From: a virus
Length of the DNA stretch: 24,398 bases
IMG/VR virus record: IMGVR_UViG_3300027833_001158
Coordinates: 1-24,398 of that record
Reading direction: 5' to 3' (one strand)
The position numbers and the translations under genes were made by a program. Under the pieces are notes generated by a model. The model worked only from the letters and a program-made list of their open reading frames with translations. It had not been told where the DNA came from and made no database searches. This document shows positions 236 to 15,759 of the stretch, piece by piece (the stretch's first letter is position 1; each line of letters begins with the position of its first letter).

Positions 236-1789
236 ATGGATGCAATTGTTAAGAACCTTAACTTCGGAGACGAAGCTAGGGACAATGTATTAAGAGGTAT
301 AAACAAACTGACTAAAGCAGTTAGTTCTACTCTAGGCGCTAGTGGTAAATGCGTCATGCTAGAAGACCAAACCGGTAATCCTATTATAACAAAAGATGGT
401 GTAACTGTAGCTGATTCAATAATACTTAGAGATCCTGTAGAAAACATGGGTGCAACTCTACTTAAAGAAGCTGCTAGAAAAACAGTTAGAGAAGCTGGTG
501 ATGGTACCACAACTGCAACAGTATTAGCTCACGCTATACTGCAAGAAGCTTATAAGGTTATAGGTAAACAAAATTCTAGAGAATTAAAAAATGGCATAAA
601 CTCTGCTACGGAAAAAGTTGTTAAATATTTAAAATCAATTTCAGTAAGCGTTGAAGGAGATATGATAGACCAGATAGCTACTATATCAACTAATAACGAT
701 CCGGAGCTTGGTAAAATTATAGCAAATGCTTTTAGAGCTGTTAACAATACAGGTGTAGTGATGATGGAAACTTCGGCTGACGGAGAAACAGAGGTAGAAA
801 TTGTAGATGGTGTTCAGTATGATAAAGGAATAACTAACTCGCATTTCATTACTAATCAACAGCTAAAAACAGCTGAATTAGATAATCCATTAGTCTTGCT
901 AGTAGAATCTCCAATAGATACAATTAGACAAATACAATCAGTGCTAGAGTACGTAATAAAAAACAATAAACCTTTGCTTATTATAGGCGATTTAGATCAA
1001 GGTGTTTTATCGGCTTTAGCTATGAATAAAAATAAAGGTAATATAAAAGTAAACGTCATAGACGCACCTACTTACGGTGTCAGTAAGAAAGAGGTTTTAG
1101 ATGATTTAGCTTTATTAACAGGCGCCACTATCATAAACGAAGACTTAGGTGACGATATGGATATGATTCAGGTAGAACATTTAGGAACATGTTTAAAAAG
1201 TGTTACATCTCACAGCGAGACAGTTTTACAAGTAAAAGATTCTAGTGATGAAGTTAAAGATATTATAGAAGATATTAAAACTAAATTAACAGAATCAAGT
1301 CAATCACATGAGACAATTCAACTTGAAAGAAGGTTAGCAATGCTATCAGCTAAAATAGCTATAGTTAAAATAGGTGCTAATTCTGCAATTGAATTAAAAG
1401 AAAAAACTGATAGAGTTGAAGACGCTATCTGCGCTACTAAAGCGGCTATTAAAGAAGGTATTGTTCCAGGTGGTGGAATTGCACTACTAAATGCTTCTGA
1501 CAGAATAACAAGTAGGTCAGAGGGCGAGAGTGTTCTTCTAGAGGCTATTAGAGCACCTTTTAAGACAATATTAGATAATGCTGGTATAAAAGGTTACGAA
1601 TCACCTAAAACTAAAGGAGTCGGCTTAAATGTAGTTAATGGTAAAACTATTAATATGATTAAAGCTGGTATTATAGATCCTTTGCTAGTTACAAAGAGCG
1701 CACTAAGAAACGCAGCTTCAGTAGCTACTACTATTTTGTCAACAGATTGTGTAATAAACAACTTGAGAATAGATGAAAGCAATAGGTAG
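236..1789 (+). CDS. groEL: Phage-encoded chaperonin GroEL (Hsp60)
   Basis: This is a 517-residue group I chaperonin, the ATP-driven folding chamber that works with a GroES lid. The equatorial ATP-binding signature GDGTTTATV lies at residues 88-96 (Asp89), the catalytic-region RVEDAICATKAA at 393-404 (Asp396 equivalent to the hydrolytic Asp398 of E. coli), and PGGGIALL at 411-418. The apical domain spans roughly 190-375 and keeps the Y...F hydrophobic pattern (Tyr195, Phe204) used for substrate and GroES binding. It is shorter than the roughly 548-residue bacterial protein, mainly because the C-terminal Gly-Gly-Met tail is missing; it ends in DESNR. The early P-loop-like LGPKGR of bacteria reads LGASGK here. 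The start is preceded by an A-rich leader (aaatacaaaATG). It overlaps groES by 17 bases. Bacterial operons usually run groES-groEL; here the order is reversed. It probably folds phage structural proteins. Confidence 0.97.
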   Translation: MDAIVKNLNFGDEARDNVLRGINKLTKAVSSTLGASGKCVMLEDQTGNPIITKDGVTVADSIILRDPVENMGATLLKEAARKTVREAGDGTTTATVLAHAILQEAYKVIGKQNSRELKNGINSATEKVVKYLKSISVSVEGDMIDQIATISTNNDPELGKIIANAFRAVNNTGVVMMETSADGETEVEIVDGVQYDKGITNSHFITNQQLKTAELDNPLVLLVESPIDTIRQIQSVLEYVIKNNKPLLIIGDLDQGVLSALAMNKNKGNIKVNVIDAPTYGVSKKEVLDDLALLTGATIINEDLGDDMDMIQVEHLGTCLKSVTSHSETVLQVKDSSDEVKDIIEDIKTKLTESSQSHETIQLERRLAMLSAKIAIVKIGANSAIELKEKTDRVEDAICATKAAIKEGIVPGGGIALLNASDRITSRSEGESVLLEAIRAPFKTILDNAGIKGYESPKTKGVGLNVVNGKTINMIKAGIIDPLLVTKSALRNAASVATTILSTDCVINNLRIDESNR

Positions 1790-2039
1790 AAATATAATTA
1801 TAAACAAAGAAAAAGAAGGGACCACCAAAACAAAGGGTGGTTTACTTCTTGCTCAGAACCAGAGAGAAGATATTAGGTACACTAAAGCAACTATAGTTTC
1901 GGTTGGTGAAGAAGCAGAGGCCGCGGGTTTAAAAGAAGGTAGTAATATATACTTTGATAGACATGCTGGTCATAAAATAGAATTTGAAAAAGATATTTAC
2001 CACGTTATAAAGTTACAAGATATAGTTGTTGTTTTATGA
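1773..2039 (+). CDS. groES: Co-chaperonin GroES (Cpn10)
   Basis: This is an 88-residue single-domain GroES-type beta barrel, the heptameric lid of the GroEL chamber. The mobile-loop region is visible at residues 14-27 (EGTTKTKGGLLLAQ), where LLL takes the place of the IVL tripeptide that docks on GroEL. ATIVSVGEEA follows as the GEVLAVG strand, then GSNIYFDRHAG as the GDIVIFNDGYG strand, and the end IKLQDIVVVL matches the ESDILAIVE strand. The usual N-terminal RPLHDR is degenerate (AIGRNIII). The start lies inside the last codons of groEL and the stop forms an ATGA overlap with the next gene, so translational coupling of the three genes is likely. The assignment rests on the pattern of strands plus the adjacent GroEL. 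Confidence 0.93.
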   Translation: MKAIGRNIIINKEKEGTTKTKGGLLLAQNQREDIRYTKATIVSVGEEAEAAGLKEGSNIYFDRHAGHKIEFEKDIYHVIKLQDIVVVL

Positions 2040-2482
2040 GAAGGCTAGAAGCAAGGGATATAAAAGATATGAACTTGTTAAAACATTATCGCATAATACG
2101 TAAATGGGCTTGTAAAAACAATGACTTAAATGATTCTGATTTAGAGCTATTAATTTATTTTGATTGCATAGAGTATTTTACTAAAAATGATTTTATAGAA
2201 GGTACTTATTCTTATAGCTGGGACAATAGAAGATGGAACAGGCTTCTTAAAGAAGGTTGGATAGTTGTTTGGAGAAAAAGAAATCATACAACTCAAAAAT
2301 ACCACATATACAAAGTGTCTTTTAAATGCAAGCATCTTATAAACAAAATGTATAAGATAATGCTAGGCGAAGAAGATATTTCAATGAATGGTAGAAGCAA
2401 TAAGTTAGTTAAAGGTGAGTCTTACACAGATAAGGTTTTAACTAAAGCTATAAGTTACGTAAACAAAGATAAAAATAGATAA
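2036..2482 (+). CDS. Winged-helix protein, probable DNA-binding regulator
   Basis: A 148-residue basic protein begins at the ATGA overlap with the groES stop. Residues about 31-72 (LNDSDLELLIYFDC ... WNRLLKEGWI) read as the helix-turn-helix core of a MarR-like winged helix: a helix-starting L-N/T-x-x-D/E-L-E-L-L motif, a linking helix, and a recognition helix ending in LLKEGWI. VVWRKRNHTTQKYHIYKVS (73-95) has the two-strand basic wing, followed by a long C-terminal helix. Proteins of this pattern are common in marine phage genomes with no defined target. The position directly after groEL/groES suggests control of phage gene expression or simple cotranscription. The winged-helix fold is moderately sure; the regulatory role is inferred. 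Confidence 0.7.
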   Translation: MRRLEARDIKDMNLLKHYRIIRKWACKNNDLNDSDLELLIYFDCIEYFTKNDFIEGTYSYSWDNRRWNRLLKEGWIVVWRKRNHTTQKYHIYKVSFKCKHLINKMYKIMLGEEDISMNGRSNKLVKGESYTDKVLTKAISYVNKDKNR

Positions 2483-2483
2483 T

Positions 2484-2750
2484 ATGATAAATCAAAATAC
2501 TCCACAACCAAACAACGAAATGGTTGATCAAGAACCTCAGTACACACTGACACCACCTAAAGCTGGTAATCAATTAGGTATGGCTAAGCCTTTATTTAAT
2601 GACAATGTACAAGCATCTGCTAATTCTATATTTGGAAACGAGACACAAAGACAAACGTCATTAGCTAACCCACCTTTCTATCAGCTAGACCCAATGTACA
2701 ACGGTGAACCTGGAGTTCAAAAGGAAGATTTTAAACAATTTAAAAAATAA
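2484..2750 (+). CDS. Disordered small protein of unknown function
   Basis: An 88-residue protein starts one base after the previous stop. It is rich in Asn, Gln and Pro, lacks a hydrophobic core or membrane helix, and has recurring NPPFYQLDPM / AKPLFNDN-type aromatic-proline patches followed by a lysine-rich end (FKQFKK). I do not recognise the family. Low complexity and the neighbouring set of small charged proteins suggest a flexible virion-associated or scaffold-like peptide, but this is a guess. The reading frame is supported by tight spacing, an unambiguous single start and + strand continuity. Confidence 0.6.
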   Translation: MINQNTPQPNNEMVDQEPQYTLTPPKAGNQLGMAKPLFNDNVQASANSIFGNETQRQTSLANPPFYQLDPMYNGEPGVQKEDFKQFKK

Positions 2751-2756
2751 ATTATT

Positions 2757-2942
2757 ATGAAAGATAAAGCAAAAGGTCAAGTTGGTGAAAACGCAATATG
2801 GGATGGACCACTAGACGTTACAGGTTTTCCAATGGGCAAAGGATCTAGTTCAGGTATAAATGGTATGCAGATATCTAAAGCGCCTTGTGGTTGTGGGAAG
2901 TCGAAAGGACTACCTATTACTAAAATTGCTCAAGGTCTATAA
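2757..2942 (+). CDS. Small Gly/Cys protein of unknown function
   Basis: A 61-residue protein follows a six-base gap. It contains GFPMGKGSSSG around residues 24-34 and a PCGCGKSKG patch near residue 43, so two cysteines are separated by one glycine. There is no second Cys pair to form a classical zinc knuckle. The GFPMGKG patch resembles the short K/SP-type motifs in the downstream small proteins. It is not a recognised family. The frame is accepted because it fits exactly between two tightly packed genes and no competing frame here has a better start. Confidence 0.55.
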   Translation: MKDKAKGQVGENAIWDGPLDVTGFPMGKGSSSGINGMQISKAPCGCGKSKGLPITKIAQGL

Positions 2943-2943
2943 A

Positions 2944-3102
2944 ATGTTAGGCAATATGCAAGATTTAAAAATATGGTTTTTCAATGCAATGACATTAAGC
3001 GTTGCTACTTTTTCTACTATAGAATTAGGTTTAAAAATTGTTTTACTTTTAGTGAGTATAGGCTACACGTTAGATAGATGGTTTAATAGCAAAAAAAAAT
3101 AA
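2944..3102 (+). CDS. Small membrane protein, possible holin-like
   Basis: A 52-residue protein from the ATG at 2944, one base after the previous stop. A longer frame opens at 2860 but its extra 28 residues run inside the preceding gene, so the internal start is preferred; an ATG at 2956 is also possible. The sequence has FFNAMTLSVATFS followed by a hydrophobic helix ELGLKIVLLLVSIGYT, then DRWFNSKKK, a basic tail. One strong and perhaps one weak membrane span with a positively charged C-terminus is the layout of many small phage holins and related membrane proteins. A clearer holin is encoded at 4933, so this one may be an accessory lysis or an unrelated membrane peptide. Confidence 0.65.
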   Translation: MLGNMQDLKIWFFNAMTLSVATFSTIELGLKIVLLLVSIGYTLDRWFNSKKK

Positions 3103-3103
3103 A

Positions 3104-3385
3104 ATGCCTTACACTCAACCAGACTCATCACCTTTCTTAAGAGTTCGTAAAACAACTAAAGGAAAAGGTAGAAACTTTTTATCTACTAAAGAAGGAGCTG
3201 GTATGACTTCCGCTGGGGTTAAAAAATATAGAAAAGAAAACCCAGGTAGTAAACTAAAGACAGCTGTAACCGGTGATGTTAAACCGGGTAGCAAAGACGC
3301 TAAAAGAAGAAAATCTTTTTGCGCTAGATCCAAAGGATGGAAGGGTGAAAGAGGATTAGCAGCGCGTAGAAGATGGAAATGTTAA
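3104..3385 (+). CDS. Basic DUF6321-like phage protein
   Basis: A 93-residue, strongly basic protein. Residues about 33-75 carry the pattern GMTSAGVKKYRKENPGSK, then KTAVTG, KPGSKDAKRRKSFCARSKG, and a C-terminal ARRRWKC. From memory this matches a widely distributed family of small phage proteins of unknown function (DUF6321-type), conserved around RRKSFCAR and the terminal R-W-x-C. The two Cys (in SFCAR and at the very end) may form a disulfide or metal site. The N-terminal part (PYTQPDSSPFLRVRK) is variable. The charge suggests nucleic-acid or capsid-interior binding; that is inference. It is separated from the previous stop by one base. Confidence 0.75.
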   Translation: MPYTQPDSSPFLRVRKTTKGKGRNFLSTKEGAGMTSAGVKKYRKENPGSKLKTAVTGDVKPGSKDAKRRKSFCARSKGWKGERGLAARRRWKC

Positions 3386-3408
3386 ATAATAAATAAATAT
3401 AAATAAAA

Positions 3409-3702
3409 ATGAAAAAGTCACCTTTAAAAAAATCAAAACAAAAAGTAGAACAAGACTACGCTAGAAACGCTATCGCTGACTATAAAAGCGGAGATAAAAA
3501 AGCAGCTAAATACGAAAAGAAAAAAGAATTAGAAGTAGCAGCTGGAGAATCAGGTATTATGATGAAAAAATCTCCTTTGCATAATCAAAACAAAGGTTAT
3601 GAATCTAATAAACAAGAAAAGAAAAACTTACTAAGTGACAATCCAATTGATTCACGAGCTGGTGGTTCTTTTATGTCTAAGCACTCTAAGAGTAGAATGT
3701 AA
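3409..3702 (+). CDS. Lysine-rich small protein with repeated KKSPL motif
   Basis: A 97-residue, lysine-rich, mostly polar protein with no predicted membrane span. It begins MKKSPLKKSKQK and repeats the motif near residue 52 as MMKKSPLHNQNKGY; the segment between is helical and charged. The end SFMSKHSKSRM is again basic. I recognise the general style (very short proteins with K-S-P-L/M patches) from marine phage genomes but not a named family. The start follows an A-rich leader (aataaaaATG). It is a candidate internal virion or DNA-binding peptide; no activity is shown by the sequence. Confidence 0.6.
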   Translation: MKKSPLKKSKQKVEQDYARNAIADYKSGDKKAAKYEKKKELEVAAGESGIMMKKSPLHNQNKGYESNKQEKKNLLSDNPIDSRAGGSFMSKHSKSRM

Positions 3703-4192: not shown

Positions 4193-4516
4193 ATGGCATT
4201 CAAACTAAACACACCACCTTATAATTACGATAGTACTCCTATTTACAGTGTAGATATGGAAGACGGTGTTTTAGGTAAAGCTAACAAAAACGGTTCTATA
4301 ATAGTAGGTAAAAATTTAAGCCAACTAGAACAAGAAGACGTGATTAGACATGAGAAAGTTCACTTAGATCAAATGAAGAGAGGTGATCTTGATTATGACA
4401 ATGACAACGTTTATTGGAAAGGTAAAAAAATACCAAGATCTACAATGGATGAAGGTAATAAAAGCTTACCTTGGGAAAAAGAAGCGTACAAAGCAAATAG
4501 ATTAAAAACAAGTTAA
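4193..4516 (+). CDS. Small HExxH putative zinc metallopeptidase
   Basis: A 107-residue protein with the motif RHEKVHLDQ at residues 52-60, giving HExxH (His53, Glu54, His57), the zinc-binding and catalytic signature of many metallopeptidases. A downstream acidic patch PWEKEAY (Glu95, Glu97) could provide the third ligand, as in gluzincin-like enzymes. The spacer contains GDLDYDNDNVYWKGKK, seen from memory in homologous small phage proteins. The N-terminal MAFKLNTPPYNYDSTP is probably flexible. It is much shorter than typical secreted peptidases, so it could be a minimal protease for virion maturation, a virion-borne enzyme acting on host envelope, or a degenerate fold. No signal peptide is visible. 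The start lies immediately after the terminator's T run. Confidence 0.7.
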   Translation: MAFKLNTPPYNYDSTPIYSVDMEDGVLGKANKNGSIIVGKNLSQLEQEDVIRHEKVHLDQMKRGDLDYDNDNVYWKGKKIPRSTMDEGNKSLPWEKEAYKANRLKTS

Positions 4517-4932: not shown

Positions 4933-5331
4933 ATGAGTTGGTTAAGTAGATTATTAGGCAGCGGAACAAAAGGTCTTGGTGATTTAGCTAAAGATATTAG
5001 AGAAGCGATAAAAGGTAAAGAGCTTGATCCTAATAAAAAATTAGATATAGCCGCTAAATTGGCAGAAGTGCAAATAAAAATAAATGAAGCCGAAGCAACA
5101 CACAGAACGGTGTTTGTTGCAGGCTGGAGACCATTTATTGGTTGGGTTTGCGGATTAGGTTTATTATACGCTGTGTTTATAGAACCTTTGTTAAGGTTTG
5201 TGTTTACAGTAAACGGATGGGAGATAGAGTTTCCACGTATAGATACAACTATTACAATGCAAGTACTATTCGGAATGTTAGGATTAGTAGGAGCTAGATC
5301 ATACGAAAAGAAAAATAATTTAACAAAATAA
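4933..5331 (+). CDS. Holin of the 3TM gene-transfer-agent type
   Basis: A 132-residue protein that matches the GTA_holin_3TM family (known from prophages and gene transfer agents), which forms membrane lesions to release virions. Residues 1-55 are an amphipathic charged helical region. Then comes the family hallmark EATHRTVFVAGWRPFIGWV (about 54-72), followed by hydrophobic segments CGLGLLYAVFIEPLLRFVF and, after a polar loop (NGWEIEFPRIDTT), a last helix QVLFGMLGLVGARSYEKK. The family normally ends with the GMLGLxGxRxxEK pattern, seen here at 114-126. An endolysin is not in the window, so its partner is probably elsewhere. It sits among virion genes with short gaps on both sides. Confidence 0.88.
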   Translation: MSWLSRLLGSGTKGLGDLAKDIREAIKGKELDPNKKLDIAAKLAEVQIKINEAEATHRTVFVAGWRPFIGWVCGLGLLYAVFIEPLLRFVFTVNGWEIEFPRIDTTITMQVLFGMLGLVGARSYEKKNNLTK

Positions 5332-5878: not shown

Positions 5879-6826
5879 ATGGCTATGGGTATCAGTATAG
5901 GTATTGGTATACCTAGCGGAGTGTTAAGTTCAGGATCTGGATTAGATGGAACATCTTTTATAACTACTTGGAGAACAACAGTAGATGGAGAAACTATAAC
6001 TATACCGATTGGGACTGGTAGTTATAATTATACTGTTAAAACAAGTGATGGTCAAGAAATCCCAAATATAACTGGAGACGCTACAATAACATTTACTACT
6101 GCTGGAGACTATGATGTTTCTATAAGTGGAACATTTCCTCAAATAAAACTTAATAACGGTGGAGATAAACTAAAAATAGTAGATATCAAGCAATGGGGGA
6201 ATATTGTTTGGGGTTCTTTCTCTGCTTCTTTTAGAGGTTGTAGTAATTTAGTTGGAACTTATACGGATGCTCCTAATTTAAGTAGTGTTGGTAATATGAG
6301 CAATACTTTTAGAGACTGTGATATTTTTACTGGTAAAACATCAAATTGGGATACAAGTATTGTAACTAATATGAATGGTATGTTTAGAAGCGCTGAATCG
6401 TTTAACTCTGATTGTTCTTCTTGGGATGTTAGTAGTCTTACTACTGCAGTAAGTATGTTTCAACAAGCAAGAGCATTTAATCAAGATATTGGTGCTTGGG
6501 ATGTGAGTAATGTGACTAATATGAATCAAATGTTTAGCACTACCAATCTTTTTGACCAAAATTTAGAAAGTTGGAATATTTCAAAAGTAACAACCTTTGG
6601 TAACTTTAAAACAGTTGGAGTCTTTTCAACAGCAAACTATGATGCGCTATTAATTGGATGGAATAATACTTTACTTGCACAGTTTCCTGGAGGTGGAGGA
6701 TATACTTTAACACCTTCAATAAGTCTTGGTAATTCACAATATACAGCAGGTGGAGCAGCTGAAGCAGCAAGAACTTCTTTAGACTCGGTATTTGGTTGGA
6801 CTATAACAGACGGAGGAACAGCTTAA
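5879..6826 (+). CDS. DUF285 / BspA-like surface repeat protein
   Basis: A 315-residue protein. Residues about 25-100 form a PKD-like beta domain (TFTTAGDYDVSISGTFP). Then come repeats with 25-residue spacing: Trp157, Trp182, Trp207 and Trp232 each begin W-D/N-x-S, as in WDVSNVTNMNQMF (207-219), and Phe144, 169, 194 and 219 keep the same period. This is the DUF285 (Pfam) / 26-residue bacterial surface repeat found in Bacteroidota and Mycoplasma lipoproteins. The end AALDSVFG-like region ARTSLDSVFGWTITDGG (297-313) is the usual C-terminal cap of such proteins. No signal peptide is present, so it is a virion protein rather than a secreted one. Adhesion to host or particle surface is the likely role; its location next to the 5344 decoration-like gene supports that. 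Confidence 0.9.
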   Translation: MAMGISIGIGIPSGVLSSGSGLDGTSFITTWRTTVDGETITIPIGTGSYNYTVKTSDGQEIPNITGDATITFTTAGDYDVSISGTFPQIKLNNGGDKLKIVDIKQWGNIVWGSFSASFRGCSNLVGTYTDAPNLSSVGNMSNTFRDCDIFTGKTSNWDTSIVTNMNGMFRSAESFNSDCSSWDVSSLTTAVSMFQQARAFNQDIGAWDVSNVTNMNQMFSTTNLFDQNLESWNISKVTTFGNFKTVGVFSTANYDALLIGWNNTLLAQFPGGGGYTLTPSISLGNSQYTAGGAAEAARTSLDSVFGWTITDGGTA

Positions 6827-7586: not shown

Positions 7587-8192
7587 ATGAAAAGTTTATA
7601 CGATTTCATAATTAAGCCATTAGGTGATAGATATGAAAATGAAATAAAACTTGGTGATAAGACCTTAGTCTTGAACACGAAAATAGAAAGCTTTAAATCA
7701 GTCAATAATATGGCTGTAGTTGTTGAAACTCCTAAAGCTTTTAAAACAGATATAAAAAAAGGAGATATAATAGTAGTTCATCACAATGTTTTTAGAGTAT
7801 TCTACGACATGAAAGGTGTTAAAAAAAATAGTAGATCTTATTTTGAAGATGGATTATACTTTTGTGCTATAGATCAAATATATTTGTATAAAAATACAGG
7901 CAATTGGAAATCATTTGGGGACAGATGTTTTGTAATGCCTTTAAAGAATAATAACTCTTTAGAGCTAGAAAAAGAACAAAAACTTATTGGTATACTAAAA
8001 TACGGAAATAAGTCCTTAGAAGCTCTTAAAATAATCCCAGGAGATGTATTAGGTTTTACACCTAACAGTGAATGGGATTTTATTATAGACAAGCAAAGAG
8101 TTTATTGTATGAAATCTAATGATATTGTAATTAAATATGAACACAAAGGAAACCAAGAAGAATATAATCCTAGCTGGGCAGAAAGCAGTTGA
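7587..8192 (+). CDS. Tandem GroES-like (two Cpn10 folds) protein
   Basis: A 201-residue protein that I read as two GroES-like beta barrels. Repeat 1 (about 5-102): PLGDRY (11-16) for the bacterial RPLHDR, KTLVLNT (25-31) for GGIVLT, NMAVVVETP for GEVLAVG, DIKKGDIIVVHHN (55-67) for VKVGDIVIFND, and YFCAIDQIYLYK (91-102) for the final ESDILAIVE strand. Repeat 2 (about 112-185): RCFVMPLKN, KLIGILKYGN, LKIIPGDVLGFTP and RVYCMKSNDIVIKYE (171-185), which aligns well with GroES EEVLIMSESDILAIVE. The two halves share the Y-x-C-x-x-x-[DN]-x-I end. Repeat 2 has no obvious long mobile loop. Double-Cpn10 proteins are known in chloroplasts (Cpn20). A normal groES lies upstream, so this may be a second co-chaperonin or a virion barrel. 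The last 56 bases overlap the next gene. Confidence 0.72.
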   Translation: MKSLYDFIIKPLGDRYENEIKLGDKTLVLNTKIESFKSVNNMAVVVETPKAFKTDIKKGDIIVVHHNVFRVFYDMKGVKKNSRSYFEDGLYFCAIDQIYLYKNTGNWKSFGDRCFVMPLKNNNSLELEKEQKLIGILKYGNKSLEALKIIPGDVLGFTPNSEWDFIIDKQRVYCMKSNDIVIKYEHKGNQEEYNPSWAESS

Positions 8193-8412
8193 AGAGTTAA
8201 TTAAAGTAGCTAAGGAAGCTATTGTTGATTCTGATGATGATCTATCTGCTGATAAACTTAAAAACGCTGCAGCTACTAAGAAGCTAGCTATATTCGATGC
8301 TTTTGAAATTCTTAATCGTATTGAAGAAGAAGAGAATATGCTTGATCCTAAAAAAGAAGAAGTTAAACAAGAAAAGTCTTTTAGAGGTTTTGCTGAAGGA
8401 AGATCTAAGTAA
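8137..8412 (+). CDS. Helical protein upstream of terminase, possible small terminase
   Basis: A 91-residue helical protein. The segment LAGQKAVEELIKVAKEAI (12-29) is one helix; DDDLSADKLKNAAATKKLAIFDAFEILNRIEEEE (33-66) forms another pair, followed by a disordered tail. From memory, proteins with the SADKLKNAAATKKLAIFDAFEIL pattern sit directly before TerL in many marine phages. A small-terminase or packaging-accessory role is suggested by position only; no helix-turn-helix is obvious. It begins within the preceding gene (56-base overlap) and its stop shares one base with the terL start (TAATG). The start is supported by the good match of residues 1-20 to the remembered family. Confidence 0.6.
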   Translation: MNTKETKKNIILAGQKAVEELIKVAKEAIVDSDDDLSADKLKNAAATKKLAIFDAFEILNRIEEEENMLDPKKEEVKQEKSFRGFAEGRSK

Positions 8413-10622
8413 TGTACGAGCAAACTCTATATAGCGTCTTAAAACACCACATAAAACCCAAAATTGTAAATAGATTAAACAAATACAAAAAATGGGAGTA
8501 TGGTTATAACAAAGAATATGACGTTGTTGTTATAAGTAAGACTGGTCAAATAGGTGAAATTTACAATATACAAGGTTTAAATATAGCTTTACCAAAACAA
8601 GAGAATGTTGTTTCTTTTGAATCAAACAAGTGGCAGCATACTCAATACCCTAAAGAGCTAAAAAAAATAAAATCTGTTTTTGATTGGGATGATTACCCTA
8701 CTAACTTTAAAGAAGAATGGTATGACTATATCGATACAGAGTTTAAAAGAAGAGATGAAGGAATGTGGTTTAATAATAAAGACGTTCCTACTTATATTAC
8801 TGGTACTAACTACATGTACCTGCAGTGGTCCAAGATTGATGTTGGGCAGCCAGATTTTAGGGAGTCAAACAGATTATTCTACTTATTCTGGGAAGCTTGT
8901 AAAGCAGACGTCAGATCATACGGTATGTGTTATCTTAAAAACAGACGTTCTGGATTCTCGTTTATGGCATCTGGAGAAACAGTTAACCAGGCAACAATAT
9001 CAACAGATTCAAGGTTTGGTATATTATCAAAATCTGGGCCTGATGCGAAGAAAATGTTTACAGACAAAGTTGTACCAATATCGATCAACTACCCTTTCTT
9101 TTTCAAACCGATACAAGACGGTATGGACAGGCCAAAAACAGAACTCGCGTATAGAGTACCAGCGTCGAAGTTTACACGAAAGAAACTTGATACCAACGAA
9201 AAGTTACAAGAAATATCGGGGCTCGACACAACAATTGACTGGAAAAACACAGGAGACAACTCGTATGACGGGGAAAAATTAAAACTACTAGTACACGATG
9301 AAAGTGGAAAGTGGGAAAGACCTACAAATATATTAAACAACTGGAGGGTAACTAAAACTTGTTTAAGATTAGGTTCTAGAATTATAGGTAAATGTATGAT
9401 GGGCTCAACATCAAACGCTCTAGACAAGGGTGGTGAAAATTTTAAAAAATTATACTATGATTCAAATATTAACGAAAGAAACGCCAATGGGCAGACTCGT
9501 TCAGGACTCTATAGTTTGTTCATACCTATGGAATGGAACTACGAAGGATACATTGATTCTTATGGATTTCCTGTATTCAACACTCCAGGTAAAGAAATAA
9601 AAGGACCACAGGGTGATCCAATAGATCAAGGAGTAATAGAGTATTGGCAAAACGAAGTAGATGGTTTAAAAAACGATCAAGATGGTTTAAACGAATACTA
9701 TCGTCAATTTCCAAGAACAGAGCAGCACGCTTTTAGAGATGAAACAAAGCAATCGCTTTTTAATCTTACAAAAATATACGAGCAAATAGATTACAATGAA
9801 GACTTAAGAAACACCTCTGTAGTAACTAAAGGTAGTTTTCAATGGGAGAATGGTGTTAAAGATTCTAAGGTTTTATTTATGCCTAATAAAGACGGTAGAT
9901 TTAATATAACTTGGGTTCCACCTACGAATCTTCAGAATCGTGTAATAATTAAAGGTAATACTAAGTATCCAGGTAATGATCACTGTGGAGCGTTTGGTTG
10001 TGATAGTTATGATATATCAGGTACAGTTGATGGTAGAGGTTCTAATGGAGCTTTACACGGTTTAACAAAATTTAGTATGGAGGACATACCTCCTAATCAT
10101 TTCTTTTTAGAATATATTGCTAGACCACAAACAGCTGAGATGTTTTTTGAAGATGTATTAATGGCATGTATATTTTACGGTATGCCTTTACTTTGTGAAA
10201 ACAACAAGCCTAGATTATTATATTATTTCAGAAGAAGAGGTTATAGAGGTTACTCTATGAATAGACCAGATAAGGTTTGGAACAAATTATCAGTAACTGA
10301 AAAAGAAATAGGTGGAATACCTAACTCTAGTGAAGACATAAAACAAGCTCACGCTTCTGCTATAGAAACATATGTAGATACAAACATTGGTAAAACTGAA
10401 GGAGGTTATGGAGACATGTACTTTCAAAGAACCTTAGAAGATTGGGCTAAATTTAATATAAATAACAGAACAAAACATGATGCTTCCATAAGTTCTGGTT
10501 TAGCTTTAATGGCATGTAACAAGAATAGATACACACCAACAGCTAAAAAAGAATATAAAAGTATAAACTTAGGTATAAAAAAATATGACAACACAGGCGC
10601 GTCATCAAAAATGATTAAATAA
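8412..10622 (+). CDS. terL: Terminase large subunit (packaging ATPase/nuclease)
   Basis: A 736-residue DNA-packaging motor that cuts and pumps the genome into proheads. The ATPase has a deviant P-loop LKNRRSGFSFMAS (175-187), with Phe182 in place of the usual Lys of GK[ST]; this form is also known in crAss-like TerL. The Walker B is KLLVHDESG (291-299, Asp296 and Glu297) and the coupling motif is GSTSN (331-335). The segment QFPRTEQHAF (432-441) is the typical link after the ATPase. The RNase H-like nuclease shows GAFGCDSYD (Asp531), LLCENNK (Glu596) and TKHDASIS (Asp690) as metal ligands. Length agrees with crAss-like enzymes. The codon use of the ATPase core (about 8820-9310) is richer in G/C than the rest. 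It ends directly against the portal start. Confidence 0.95.
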   Translation: MYEQTLYSVLKHHIKPKIVNRLNKYKKWEYGYNKEYDVVVISKTGQIGEIYNIQGLNIALPKQENVVSFESNKWQHTQYPKELKKIKSVFDWDDYPTNFKEEWYDYIDTEFKRRDEGMWFNNKDVPTYITGTNYMYLQWSKIDVGQPDFRESNRLFYLFWEACKADVRSYGMCYLKNRRSGFSFMASGETVNQATISTDSRFGILSKSGPDAKKMFTDKVVPISINYPFFFKPIQDGMDRPKTELAYRVPASKFTRKKLDTNEKLQEISGLDTTIDWKNTGDNSYDGEKLKLLVHDESGKWERPTNILNNWRVTKTCLRLGSRIIGKCMMGSTSNALDKGGENFKKLYYDSNINERNANGQTRSGLYSLFIPMEWNYEGYIDSYGFPVFNTPGKEIKGPQGDPIDQGVIEYWQNEVDGLKNDQDGLNEYYRQFPRTEQHAFRDETKQSLFNLTKIYEQIDYNEDLRNTSVVTKGSFQWENGVKDSKVLFMPNKDGRFNITWVPPTNLQNRVIIKGNTKYPGNDHCGAFGCDSYDISGTVDGRGSNGALHGLTKFSMEDIPPNHFFLEYIARPQTAEMFFEDVLMACIFYGMPLLCENNKPRLLYYFRRRGYRGYSMNRPDKVWNKLSVTEKEIGGIPNSSEDIKQAHASAIETYVDTNIGKTEGGYGDMYFQRTLEDWAKFNINNRTKHDASISSGLALMACNKNRYTPTAKKEYKSINLGIKKYDNTGASSKMIK

Positions 10623-13028
10623 ATGAAGATACAAACTAATACTTATAGTTCATTCCCTAGTCAAGTAGTTAGCGATGAAGAAAAAGCAAGTCTAGATTAC
10701 GGTATACAAGTGGGTAGAGCCATAGAGCAAGAGTGGTTTCAAGGAGGAAGATCCGGAAACAGATATGCTAAGTATTATAGTAATTTTCATCAATTAAGAT
10801 TATATGCTAGAGGAGAGCAAAGTGTTCAAAAGTATAAAAATGAATTATCTATAAATGGTGATTTATCATACTTGAACTTAGACTGGACACCTGTTCCTAT
10901 TATATCTAAGTTTGTAGACATAGTTGCTAATGGATTGTCTAATAAATCATACGATATAACAGCTTACGCTCAAGATCCTTTTTCTGTAAAAAACAGAACA
11001 GACTATGCACAAGCTATAGAGCAGGATATGAATACCAAAAAAGCTCTTGTTAACTTACAAGAAAACTTAGGTATGGATTTTTCTAGAACTCAAAATATGG
11101 AAGATCTACCCGAAAGCGATGAAGAGCTTGATCTACACATGCAGATGACTTATAAGCAAAACGTAGAAGTAGCTGAGGAAGAAGTTATAAATAACGTTCT
11201 AGCAGGTAATAAATTTGATGAAACAAAGAAAAGAATAGCTCAAGACTTAACCGTTATAGGTATAGGAGCTACTAAAACTAGGTTTGATAAATCACAAGGT
11301 ATAGTTGTAGATTACGTTGATCCAGCTTATATGGTTTACTCTTATACAGAAGATCCAAACTTTGAAGACATATATTATGTAGGAGAAGTAAAAGCTGTAA
11401 CAATACCTGAATTAAAAAAGCAGTTTCCAAACCTTTCAAACGAAGAGTTAGAAAGAATACAAAAAACTCCAGGTAATTCTCAATACGTTACAGGTTGGGG
11501 TAATTACGATGAAAACACGGTTCAAGTAATGTACTTTGAGTATAAAACCTATATGAACCAAGTTTTTAAAATTAAAAGAACAGAACAAGGCTTAGAAAAA
11601 GCTTTAGAAAAAACAGATTCTTTTAATCCTCCAGAAAATGATAATTTTGAAAGAGTTTCTAGAAGTATAGAAGTGTTATACACTGGCGCTAAAGTGTTAG
11701 GTACTAATCTAATGCTAGAGTGGAAAATGGCTGAAAACATGACTAGGCCAAATGCTGATACTACTAAAGTAGAAATGAACTACTGTATTAGTGCACCTAA
11801 GATGTATAAAGGACGTATAGAGTCTCTTGTTAGTAAGATAACTGGTTTTGCTGATATGATTCAGTTAACACATTTAAAACTGCAACAAGTTATGTCTAGA
11901 ATAGTTCCTGATGGTGTATTCTTAGATATGGATGGTTTAGCTGAAGTTGATTTAGGTAACGGTACAAATTATAATCCAGCAGAAGCTCTTAATATGTATT
12001 TTCAAACTGGTTCTATAGTAGGTAGATCACTTAATCAAGAAGGTGGTTTAAATCCTGGGAAAGTACCTATACAAGAATTATCAACATCTTCTGGACAAGC
12101 TAAAATACAAAGTTTAATAGGTACGTATCAATATTACCTACAAATGATAAGAGACGTAACTGGATTAAACGAAGCTAGAGATGGTAGTCAACCAGATAAA
12201 GATGCTTTAGTTGGGGTTCAGAAATTAGCAGCAAACGCTTCTAATACAGCTACAAGACACCTATTAGATTCTTTATTGTTTGTTACTTTAAGAGTGTGTG
12301 AAAACATAAGTCTTAAAGTTGCTGATTTAATAAAAAACCCTTTAACTGAAAACTCATTAATAAATTCTATAAGCACTTTTAATACTAAAACATTAGAAGA
12401 GTTTATGGATTTACAGCTTCATGACTTTGGTATCTTTTTACAGTTAGAACCTGAAGAAGATGAAAAAGCTTTACTAGAACAGAATATTCAAATGGCTTTA
12501 CAAACAGGTGCTATAGCTTTGTCAGATGCTATTGACATTAGACAAATAAGAAATATTAAAGTAGCTAACCAGTTTTTAAAACTTAGACAAACTCAGAAAA
12601 TAAAAAGAGAGCAACAACAACAACAGCAAAATATACAAGCACAAGCTCAAGCGAATTCTGAGGCTGCTGAAAAAGCTGCTATGTTTGAGGTTCAAAAACA
12701 ACAAGCTCTTACTTCTGAAAAAGTTAATGTAGAACAAGCTAAGTCTCAGTTTGAAATACAGAGAATGCAAACTGAAGCTCAAATAAAAAGAGAGCTTATG
12801 GCTGAAGAGTTTAATTATAACATACAATTAGCTCAAGCTCAAATGAATACACAAAATCAAAGAGAGCAAGAGATAGAAGATAGGAAAGATCAAAGAATAA
12901 AACTACAGGGAACACAGCAATCAGAATTAATAAATCAAAGACAAACAGAAGGATTACCTCAGAATTTTGAATCTTCAGGTAATGACGTTTTAGGTGGTTT
13001 TGGTTTAGAAGGTTTTGGACCTAGATAA
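10623..13028 (+). CDS. Portal protein
   Basis: An 801-residue portal, the dodecameric channel at the capsid vertex through which TerL packages DNA. The N-terminal part includes LNLDWTPVPIISKFVDIVANGL (85-106), and the middle YVDPAYMVYSYTEDPNFEDI. The segment YLQMIRDVTGLNEARDGSQPD (505-525) is the typical portal stem/clip pattern also seen in crAss-like portals, followed by DALVGVQKLAANASNTATRH. Residues about 640-765 are a long Gln- and Glu-rich helix (REQQQQQQNI, then QKQQALTSEK), suggesting a long barrel or crown extension. The end GGFGLEGFGPR is glycine-rich. The start abuts terL (TAA then ATG). A 32-base gap containing the repeated pre-start element leads to the next gene. Confidence 0.93.
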   Translation: MKIQTNTYSSFPSQVVSDEEKASLDYGIQVGRAIEQEWFQGGRSGNRYAKYYSNFHQLRLYARGEQSVQKYKNELSINGDLSYLNLDWTPVPIISKFVDIVANGLSNKSYDITAYAQDPFSVKNRTDYAQAIEQDMNTKKALVNLQENLGMDFSRTQNMEDLPESDEELDLHMQMTYKQNVEVAEEEVINNVLAGNKFDETKKRIAQDLTVIGIGATKTRFDKSQGIVVDYVDPAYMVYSYTEDPNFEDIYYVGEVKAVTIPELKKQFPNLSNEELERIQKTPGNSQYVTGWGNYDENTVQVMYFEYKTYMNQVFKIKRTEQGLEKALEKTDSFNPPENDNFERVSRSIEVLYTGAKVLGTNLMLEWKMAENMTRPNADTTKVEMNYCISAPKMYKGRIESLVSKITGFADMIQLTHLKLQQVMSRIVPDGVFLDMDGLAEVDLGNGTNYNPAEALNMYFQTGSIVGRSLNQEGGLNPGKVPIQELSTSSGQAKIQSLIGTYQYYLQMIRDVTGLNEARDGSQPDKDALVGVQKLAANASNTATRHLLDSLLFVTLRVCENISLKVADLIKNPLTENSLINSISTFNTKTLEEFMDLQLHDFGIFLQLEPEEDEKALLEQNIQMALQTGAIALSDAIDIRQIRNIKVANQFLKLRQTQKIKREQQQQQQNIQAQAQANSEAAEKAAMFEVQKQQALTSEKVNVEQAKSQFEIQRMQTEAQIKRELMAEEFNYNIQLAQAQMNTQNQREQEIEDRKDQRIKLQGTQQSELINQRQTEGLPQNFESSGNDVLGGFGLEGFGPR

Positions 13029-14298: not shown

Positions 14299-15759
14299 AT
14301 GAGTTTAACTCCTCAGTTTGGTGGTTTAGTACCATCTCAAACACAACAATTACTAGCTTCAAACTATTTACAGTTTAATGCAGCTGGTGCAGGTGGTGCA
14401 ACTTTCGCGCAACAATATTTACCTGAAATTTACGAACAAGAAGTAGAGCGTTATGGAAACAGAACGTTATCTGGATTCTTAAAAATGGTTGGCGCTGAAA
14501 TGCCAATGACTTCTGATCAAGTAATTTGGTCTGAGCAAAACAGATTGCATATCTCTTACCAGGGAATTGGTATTGGAGCTAACGTTGGTACAACTAACGT
14601 AATTACTGTAGCGGGTAACGTTAATAACGTTGTTTCTATAAATGATACTGTAGTTCTTTTAAACCCTACAACTGGTGTTGAAGTAAAAGCAATCGTAACA
14701 GCTACTGTTGCTGGTGCTGGTGGTAACTTTACTGTTGCTCCTTTTAATGGTGCTGGTTTAGTTACTGGATTTGTAGCTGGAGCTACTGCTGTTGGTGCAA
14801 TACCAAGTTTAAAAGTATTTGTATATGGTTCTGCTTATACAAAAGGAAGTAGCTTAGGTGCAGGAGCTGGTAATTCAGCTGCTCGTCTTAGTGTAGATCC
14901 TCAATTAACTCAATTTTCTAACTCTCCTGTGATCATCAGAAGTCAGTACCAAGTTTCTGGATCTGATATGGCTCAAATTGGATGGGTAGAAGTTGCAACT
15001 GAAGACGGAACATCTGGATACCTATGGTACTTAAAAGCTGAATCTGAAACAAGATTACGTTTTGAAGACTACTTAGAAATGAGTATGGTAGAAGGTGAGT
15101 ACAACCAAATCGCAGCAGGTGTTAACGCTTCAGCTGGATTACCTGGTACTCAAGGTTTATTCTCTGCTATTCAATCTCGTGGAAACGTAGAAGTAGGATT
15201 TACTGCTGCTGCTGGTCTTGACGAATTTGATGCTATCTTGAAAAACTTAGATACTCAAGGAGCTATTGAAGAGAACATGTTGTTTTTACAAAGACAAACT
15301 TCTTTAGATTTTGACGATATGCTAGCTGCTATCTCTGGTGGATTCGCTGGTGGTACTGCTTTTGGTTTATTCGAAAACTCTGAAGAAATGGCTCTTAACT
15401 TAGGTTTCTCTGGATTCAGAAGAGGTTCTTATGACTTCTATAAGACTGACTGGAAATACTTAAACGATGCTTCTACTCGTGGTGGAATTAATGGTATCAG
15501 TTCTGTTGAAGGTGTATTAATACCTGCTGGAACATCTACAGTATATGACCAAATTTTAGGAACTAACATTAGAAGACCTTTCTTACACGTAAGATATAGA
15601 GCGTCTGCATCTGATGATAGACGTATGAAATCTTGGTTAACTGGTTCTGCTGGTGGTGCTGCAACTTCTGATTTAGATGCAATGCAAGTTAACTTCTTAT
15701 CAGAAAGATGTTTAGTAACTCAAGCTGCTAACAACTTTGTATTATTCAAAGGAATCTAA
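14299..15759 (+). CDS. Major capsid protein (HK97-like fold)
   Basis: A 486-residue protein placed directly after portal and scaffold. It starts MSLTPQFGGLVPSQTQQLL, has an N-arm and ERYGNRTLSGFLKMVG (50-65), then MTSDQVIWSEQNRLHISY (70-87). A Gly/Thr/Val-rich beta stretch at about 96-166 may be an inserted projecting domain. The conserved core ENSEEMALNLGFSGFRRGSYDF lies in the later half, and the end LSERCLVTQAANNFVLF (468-483) is typical of crAss-like capsid proteins. The gene uses codons such as GCT, TCT and GGT heavily, unlike its neighbours, as expected for the most abundant protein. The leader is A-rich (aaaaattATG). A hairpin follows the gene. Confidence 0.9.
   Translation: MSLTPQFGGLVPSQTQQLLASNYLQFNAAGAGGATFAQQYLPEIYEQEVERYGNRTLSGFLKMVGAEMPMTSDQVIWSEQNRLHISYQGIGIGANVGTTNVITVAGNVNNVVSINDTVVLLNPTTGVEVKAIVTATVAGAGGNFTVAPFNGAGLVTGFVAGATAVGAIPSLKVFVYGSAYTKGSSLGAGAGNSAARLSVDPQLTQFSNSPVIIRSQYQVSGSDMAQIGWVEVATEDGTSGYLWYLKAESETRLRFEDYLEMSMVEGEYNQIAAGVNASAGLPGTQGLFSAIQSRGNVEVGFTAAAGLDEFDAILKNLDTQGAIEENMLFLQRQTSLDFDDMLAAISGGFAGGTAFGLFENSEEMALNLGFSGFRRGSYDFYKTDWKYLNDASTRGGINGISSVEGVLIPAGTSTVYDQILGTNIRRPFLHVRYRASASDDRRMKSWLTGSAGGAATSDLDAMQVNFLSERCLVTQAANNFVLFKGI

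Follow-up and report, generated by a model that had tools for sequence, protein, structure and literature searches.

A phage-encoded group I chaperonin with two candidate co-chaperonin lids of different architecture in a marine, probably flavobacterial, phage group

The DNA analyzed here (the window, meaning the whole stretch at its full length) is a virus record of 24,398 nt, IMGVR_UViG_3300027833_001158, positions 1–24,398. It encodes a groEL–groES–winged-helix cluster at one end and, further along the same strand, a predicted second co-chaperonin next to the packaging module. The features on which the analysis turns are the following:

236–1789, plus strand: groEL, a group I chaperonin of 517 aa (PF00118, phrog_5725) with an intact ATP site, altered apical contacts and no Gly-Gly-Met tail
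1773–1789, plus strand: overlap of 17 bases between the end of groEL and the start of groES, kept in 78 of 80 relatives
1773–2039, plus strand: groES, a one-domain co-chaperonin of 88 aa (PF00166) with the mobile loop TKGGLLLA and a short roof segment
2036–2482, plus strand: MarR-like winged-helix protein of 148 aa (predicted fold), with an ATGA overlap with groES
7587–8192, plus strand: predicted second co-chaperonin, a tandem-GroES protein of 201 aa, domain 1 at ~1–105 and domain 2 at ~106–186 (phrog_13932, fold model)
8137–8412, plus strand: ORF of 91 aa between the tandem co-chaperonin and TerL
8412–10622, plus strand: terminase large subunit (TerL; phrog_6681), marker of the packaging module with which the tandem lid is associated
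10623–13028, plus strand: portal protein (phrog_6547)
14299–15759, plus strand: virion structural protein, likely the major capsid protein (phrog_13704; weak Crass_capsid match), a candidate client

The relatives of the window are phages of Flavobacterium, Cellulophaga, Maribacter and Tenacibaculum, which makes a Bacteroidota host likely, and we regard the window as derived from a marine phage with probably flavobacteria as its host. Other parts of the window hold a 107-aa ORF with an HEKVH (HExxH) motif, possibly a small metallopeptidase (4193–4516), a holin of the GTA_holin_3TM family (4933–5331; PF11351, 4.5e-12) with many short ORFs nearby, and a stretch of BspA/DUF285-like repeats (5879–6826; NMSNTFRDC, NMNGMF, NMNQMF), a DUF285 protein being similarly placed in the elemo phages.

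Within the cluster, groEL lies ahead of groES and overlaps it by 17 bases, and groES in turn overlaps the third ORF by the four bases ATGA, exactly as the original prediction had it. Its further claim that bacterial operons usually run from groES to groEL is borne out by 80 cellular GroEL loci, in which groES is found upstream in 76, downstream in none, and not at all in 4. All 80 IMG/VR relatives examined have the order groEL to groES, and the winged-helix ORF follows groES in every locus that is long enough (L047 is truncated). Counted over 80 sets, with the window's own copy (L001) included and the truncated L047 left out, 78 show a groEL/groES overlap of 17 bases and the other 2 an overlap of 1 base, and the groES/winged-helix overlap measures 4 bases in 77. 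The two relatives with the 1-base overlap are L077, with a groEL product of 514 aa, and L080. With pN/pS values of 0.21 for groEL, 0.34 for groES, 0.21 for the winged-helix ORF and 0.31 for the tandem gene discussed below, all four genes are under purifying selection. The kept order, the conserved overlaps and the pN/pS values of its three genes show that the cluster is no product of chance, and the overlapping frames suggest that groEL and groES are coupled in translation.

The reversed order is seen as well in elemo phages, MW202828-like phages and Panino, while groES comes first, as in hosts, in immuto, Calle/phi38:1 and MW202566, so that reversal is a lineage trait and not a phage rule. 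An apparent 44-base groEL/groES overlap in MW202828 was discarded, the annotated groES start lying upstream of the conserved MKAIGK start. Complete phage GroEL/GroES pairs had been called uncommon, which is true of phages in general, with GroEL matched in 280 of 50,697 records, but not of the window's own clade, relatives of its GroEL being encoded by more than 500 IMG/VR loci. One record, L051 (G015), contains an intact GroEL plus GroEL fragments in three pieces (2087–3529, near the other end), reflecting either a broken second copy or an assembly effect.

The short GroES matches PF00166 (Cpn10) with E 1.5e-14 and, in alignment, has the mobile loop of two glycines and a hydrophobic tripeptide (TKGGLLLA, with GGLLL at its core). 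Its roof segment after VGE is several residues shorter than that of E. coli GroES, as it is in many host GroES proteins, and a roof β-hairpin of E. coli length is not essential for GroES/Cpn10 membership. A tblastn search of phage records with the 88-aa protein gave no match, which we ascribe to these proteins being short and divergent and not to their absence. The third ORF (2036–2482) finds no match in Pfam and matches mainly phrog_17028, a family of unknown function; here the original assignment as a winged-helix gene agrees with the predicted fold and has no counterpart in the domain search. Its AlphaFold model (pLDDT 87.9) retrieves in Foldseek a MarR protein at rank 1 (probability 1.00, weak E 0.012, TM ~0.4–0.5), and nearly all of the matches listed are MarR-type proteins. 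Homologues adjoin groES in MW202828 and elemo and lie near groES, on the opposite strand, in Panino; the groES/winged-helix neighborhood is kept while orientation changes among lineages.

The GroEL of the window matches PF00118 (Cpn60) over residues 25–508 (E 6e-58) and phrog_5725 (2e-136). Its residues are numbered here as in E. coli GroEL, the numbering of the E. coli sequence having been verified at six known residues. The residues for ATP binding and hydrolysis, D52, D87, T89–T91, D398 and D495, are all present; across the 72 GroELs of the family, D52, D87, T89–T91 and D398 are invariant, as are G414–416, and D495 is kept in 71. The apical contacts with GroES and substrate are changed in all 72 at Y199 (to L or I), Y203 (to H), L234 (to Q) and V263 (to A), and in 71 at V264 (to M), with F204, L237 and L259 kept. 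Two peculiarities noted earlier for the window protein prove to be family traits: the Gly-Gly-Met tail, present in 74 of 78 cellular GroELs, is absent from all 72, and the early LGPKGR loop that reads LGASGK in the window has P33 replaced by A in 72/72 and K34 by S in 71/72, LGAS standing in place of LGPK in the Panino and Calle GroELs too. The segment with the E. coli inter-ring residues 461–464 is shortened or changed in the family, depending on the alignment, which makes single-ring behavior of the phage GroEL possible. Judged from their sequences, GroEL and GroES look like a co-adapted pair, and the virus may be tuning chamber and lid for its own proteins, as had been proposed.

The altered apical residues, the lost tail and the altered or deleted inter-ring segment could also be those of a chaperonin that prevents aggregation without encapsulating its substrates. 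Such a mode of action has been proposed for the chaperonin of Pseudomonas phage EL, which works without GroES and shows no interaction with E. coli GroES (PMC7185714). In nearly all relatives of the window, however, groEL is overlapped by a groES whose mobile loop is conserved, and the tree puts the EL-type GroEL far away; we hold this explanation to be improbable.

The best cellular matches of the window GroEL reach 37–41% identity and are scattered without distinction over Acidobacteria, Flavobacteria, Proteobacteria, Firmicutes and other groups. In a tree of 67 rows, the phage GroEL family is a single clade (100/100), set on a long stem and lying outside the cellular sequences altogether, and in a tree from which other phages were left out the Bacteroidota GroELs form a clade (SH-aLRT 100) that does not contain the phage family. 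The AU test does not reject a grouping of the phage family with the Bacteroidota as a whole (p 0.67), and an ancient Bacteroidota origin is possible on these data. The phylogeny that had been suggested as a check of the original prediction places this GroEL outside the host clades. A recent host copy, carried along as a passenger, could appeal to the Bacteroidota hosts of related phages and to the deep grouping that survives the AU test, but is rejected on identity, trees and gene order and retains hardly any probability: cellular matches are remote and scattered over many phyla, the phage family sits on its own long branch with the Bacteroidota clade closed to it, the gene order is reversed and the tail lost, and relatives are spread over many viral contigs.

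The tandem co-chaperonin gene (7587–8192), missed in the original prediction, is a more unusual feature than the groEL–groES pair. Its 201-aa product matches phrog_13932, annotated as 'co-chaperonin GroES' (1.7e-21). With Pfam only, Cpn10 is recognized, weakly, in 34 of 60 members, and the sequence profile run against the PDB reaches a best E of 0.11, with GroES at 0.19, so that the fold model is decisive for its identity. The AlphaFold model, made with 60 relatives (pLDDT 84.5, pTM 0.78), has low confidence at residues 21–40, the mobile-loop position of domain 1. Foldseek returns as best matches 7ekq chains R and Q (E 2.7e-5 and 9e-4), followed by GroES chains, with probability ~1; the PDB sequence file names chain R as a subunit of a Cpn20 co-chaperonin. 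VIA-align superposes 7ekq_R on 156 residues over 1–185 (Z 9.9), GroES on 106–185 (Z 8.2) and T4 gp31 (1g31) on 1–103 (Z 6.8). The protein is predicted from this model to be a head-to-tail double GroES resembling plastid Cpn20, which is itself a head-to-tail double GroES (PMC5780408). Domain 1 carries a long flexible loop that in several lineages bears the residues GG-[IV]-x-[FL] or GLxL, and the loop at the GroES mobile-loop site of domain 2 measures ~10 residues in the window lineage. As the mobile loop is long in domain 1 only, we describe the tandem protein as one that may work like the Cpn20 type and not as a member of it.

Of 258 IMG/VR loci, belonging to three lineages, 256 have the tandem gene just ahead of TerL, and it likewise precedes TerL in elemo, Panino, phi38:1 and phi19:3-like phages. 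This fixed place, together with a domain 2 devoid of a long mobile loop and the weak sequence similarity to Cpn10, might befit a factor with a structural, portal or packaging-assembly role, one that puts the GroES fold to another use and is no lid, with the chaperonin then consisting of the groEL–groES pair only. Against this stand the motif-bearing flexible loop of domain 1, the Pachyviridae orthologues, which score with the Cpn10 model, and the phi18:3 orthologue, which unlike the portal is not among the proteins marked as virion MS/MS finds, a result that weakly favors an assembly over a structural role; we therefore regard it as unlikely that the tandem protein is such a factor. Comparable genes occur elsewhere: Flavobacterium phage MaF61 (L354, 1412–1975) has a separate tandem GroES of 187 aa, possibly an independent duplication, in which each domain scores with the GroES profile and whose gene directly precedes that of a very divergent GroEL. 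In crAss-like cr111_1 (L352, 5834–6244), a 'putative 10kDa chaperonin' of 136 aa is encoded a short way ahead of the terminase, a position that recalls that of the tandem lid.

All 18 larger IMG/VR records with the tandem protein also encode GroEL, and 15 of them have a separate short GroES detectable by profile. That the tandem lid always goes with a phage GroEL is a rule that these records fit and the Pachyviridae break: phi19:3 (NC_021789), 13:2, 46:3 and 18:3 each have the tandem gene before TerL as well as a short GroES, and no phage GroEL was found in these four genomes. Their tandem orthologue was missed by tblastn and revealed by genome annotation combined with PF00166; a scan with the Panino tandem protein found no relatives, which we again ascribe to a short divergent protein and not to absence. 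In Gundel, also of the Pachyviridae, neither GroEL, short GroES nor tandem GroES was found. Since these four phages possess both lids and no ring, a phage GroEL is not a prerequisite for the lids, which may also serve that of the host and need not be dedicated to the phage protein. Both co-chaperonins could then be primarily adaptors for host GroEL, in the manner of T4 gp31, with the phage GroEL a later addition gained or lost by lineage, and the position and order of GroEL do vary between lineages. The presence of GroEL in 18/18 of the larger records and in the window, the tight overlap of the pair in 78/80 relatives and the changed apical contacts, which suggest a dedicated partner, argue the other way; we consider such adaptors doubtful, yet the likeliest of the alternatives.

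We favor, with a probability of roughly 60%, a phage-encoded group I chaperonin system in which one ring is served by two different lids. GroEL (236–1789) would form the ATP-driven ring, and the one-domain GroES (1773–2039), made from the same message through the overlapping frames, would be the everyday lid. The tandem-GroES protein would act as an alternative lid that, like T4 gp31, fits the ring for the phage head or other virion proteins, and may be used late in infection; that virion proteins are clients is suggested by gene position and by analogy with T4. Besides the Pachyviridae, we count against two lids on one ring the short loop of domain 2 and the inter-ring contact residues, changed or deleted depending on the alignment. 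A more elaborate form of the two-lid system, which we put forward tentatively as a possibility, would have one ring switching between the ordinary GroES and a tandem lid with a single mobile loop, head proteins being folded under a special lid timed with the packaging genes, as a viral counterpart of chloroplast Cpn10/Cpn20.

GroEL in phi38:1-like flavophages is not new, having been known since Nishimura 2017 described it in 36 genomes (PMC5332604), and the phi38:1 protein has been seen both in infected cells and in a sample of free virions (PMC13288928). GroEL/GroES analogues are common in Southern Ocean viromes (PMC8407431), Panino has been described with GroEL and GroES (PMC11590407), and the core genes listed for the Pervagoviridae include a 'chaperonin cpn10', without domain analysis in that part of the paper (PMC8776804). 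The layout of a ring with two lids appears to be undescribed so far: a search of the open-access literature found no description of two or tandem GroES proteins in phages or of a two-lid layout. Annotations that call both lids merely 'co-chaperonin GroES' or 'hypothetical protein' are corrected by the present assignments. The group concerned is an abundant one of marine, probably flavobacterial, phages, with one lid fixed beside the packaging genes and sister phages that keep two lids and no ring, and the role of the virus-specific lid becomes testable in the cultured Cellulophaga phages phi38:1 and phi19:3.

Among known systems, phi38:1 and the marine 'group 2' flavophages (PMC5332604) share with the window a group I GroEL in podovirus-like Bacteroidota phages, and in phi38:1 a tandem GroES, gp089, precedes TerL and a short GroES, gp007, is encoded close to groEL. 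The phi38:1 genus differs in that the Calle GroEL is ~38% identical to that of the window and that, in Calle/phi38:1, groEL lies downstream of the short GroES, in host-like order with one ORF between. The Flavobacterium elemo phages (Elemovirus) have the reversed groEL–groES order, a winged-helix homologue beside groES and a tandem gene at TerL, which it overlaps; unlike in the window, their groEL is ~40% identical, the overlap is 1 base, and groEL–groES lies on the strand opposite the late genes. The Cpn20 type of chloroplasts and apicoplasts (7ekq), the best structural match of the tandem protein, likewise has two GroES domains head to tail, but identity is ~11%, the window lineage has a long flexible loop in domain 1 only, and the tandem protein is phage-encoded and sits beside TerL; an odd-numbered ring with an even-domained lid would now be met outside plastids. 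T4 gp31 is also a phage-encoded co-chaperonin of GroES fold, and domain 1 of the tandem protein aligns with it (1g31); gp31 consists of one domain and partners the GroEL of its host, whereas the window phage encodes a GroEL and a second lid besides. Pseudomonas phage EL (gp146) has a phage GroEL homologue as well, but on a distant branch, whereas the GroEL of the window is coupled to a GroES gene. EL has a ring that is proposed to act without a lid, T4 a lid without a ring, and the group of the window a ring with two putative lids of different architecture.
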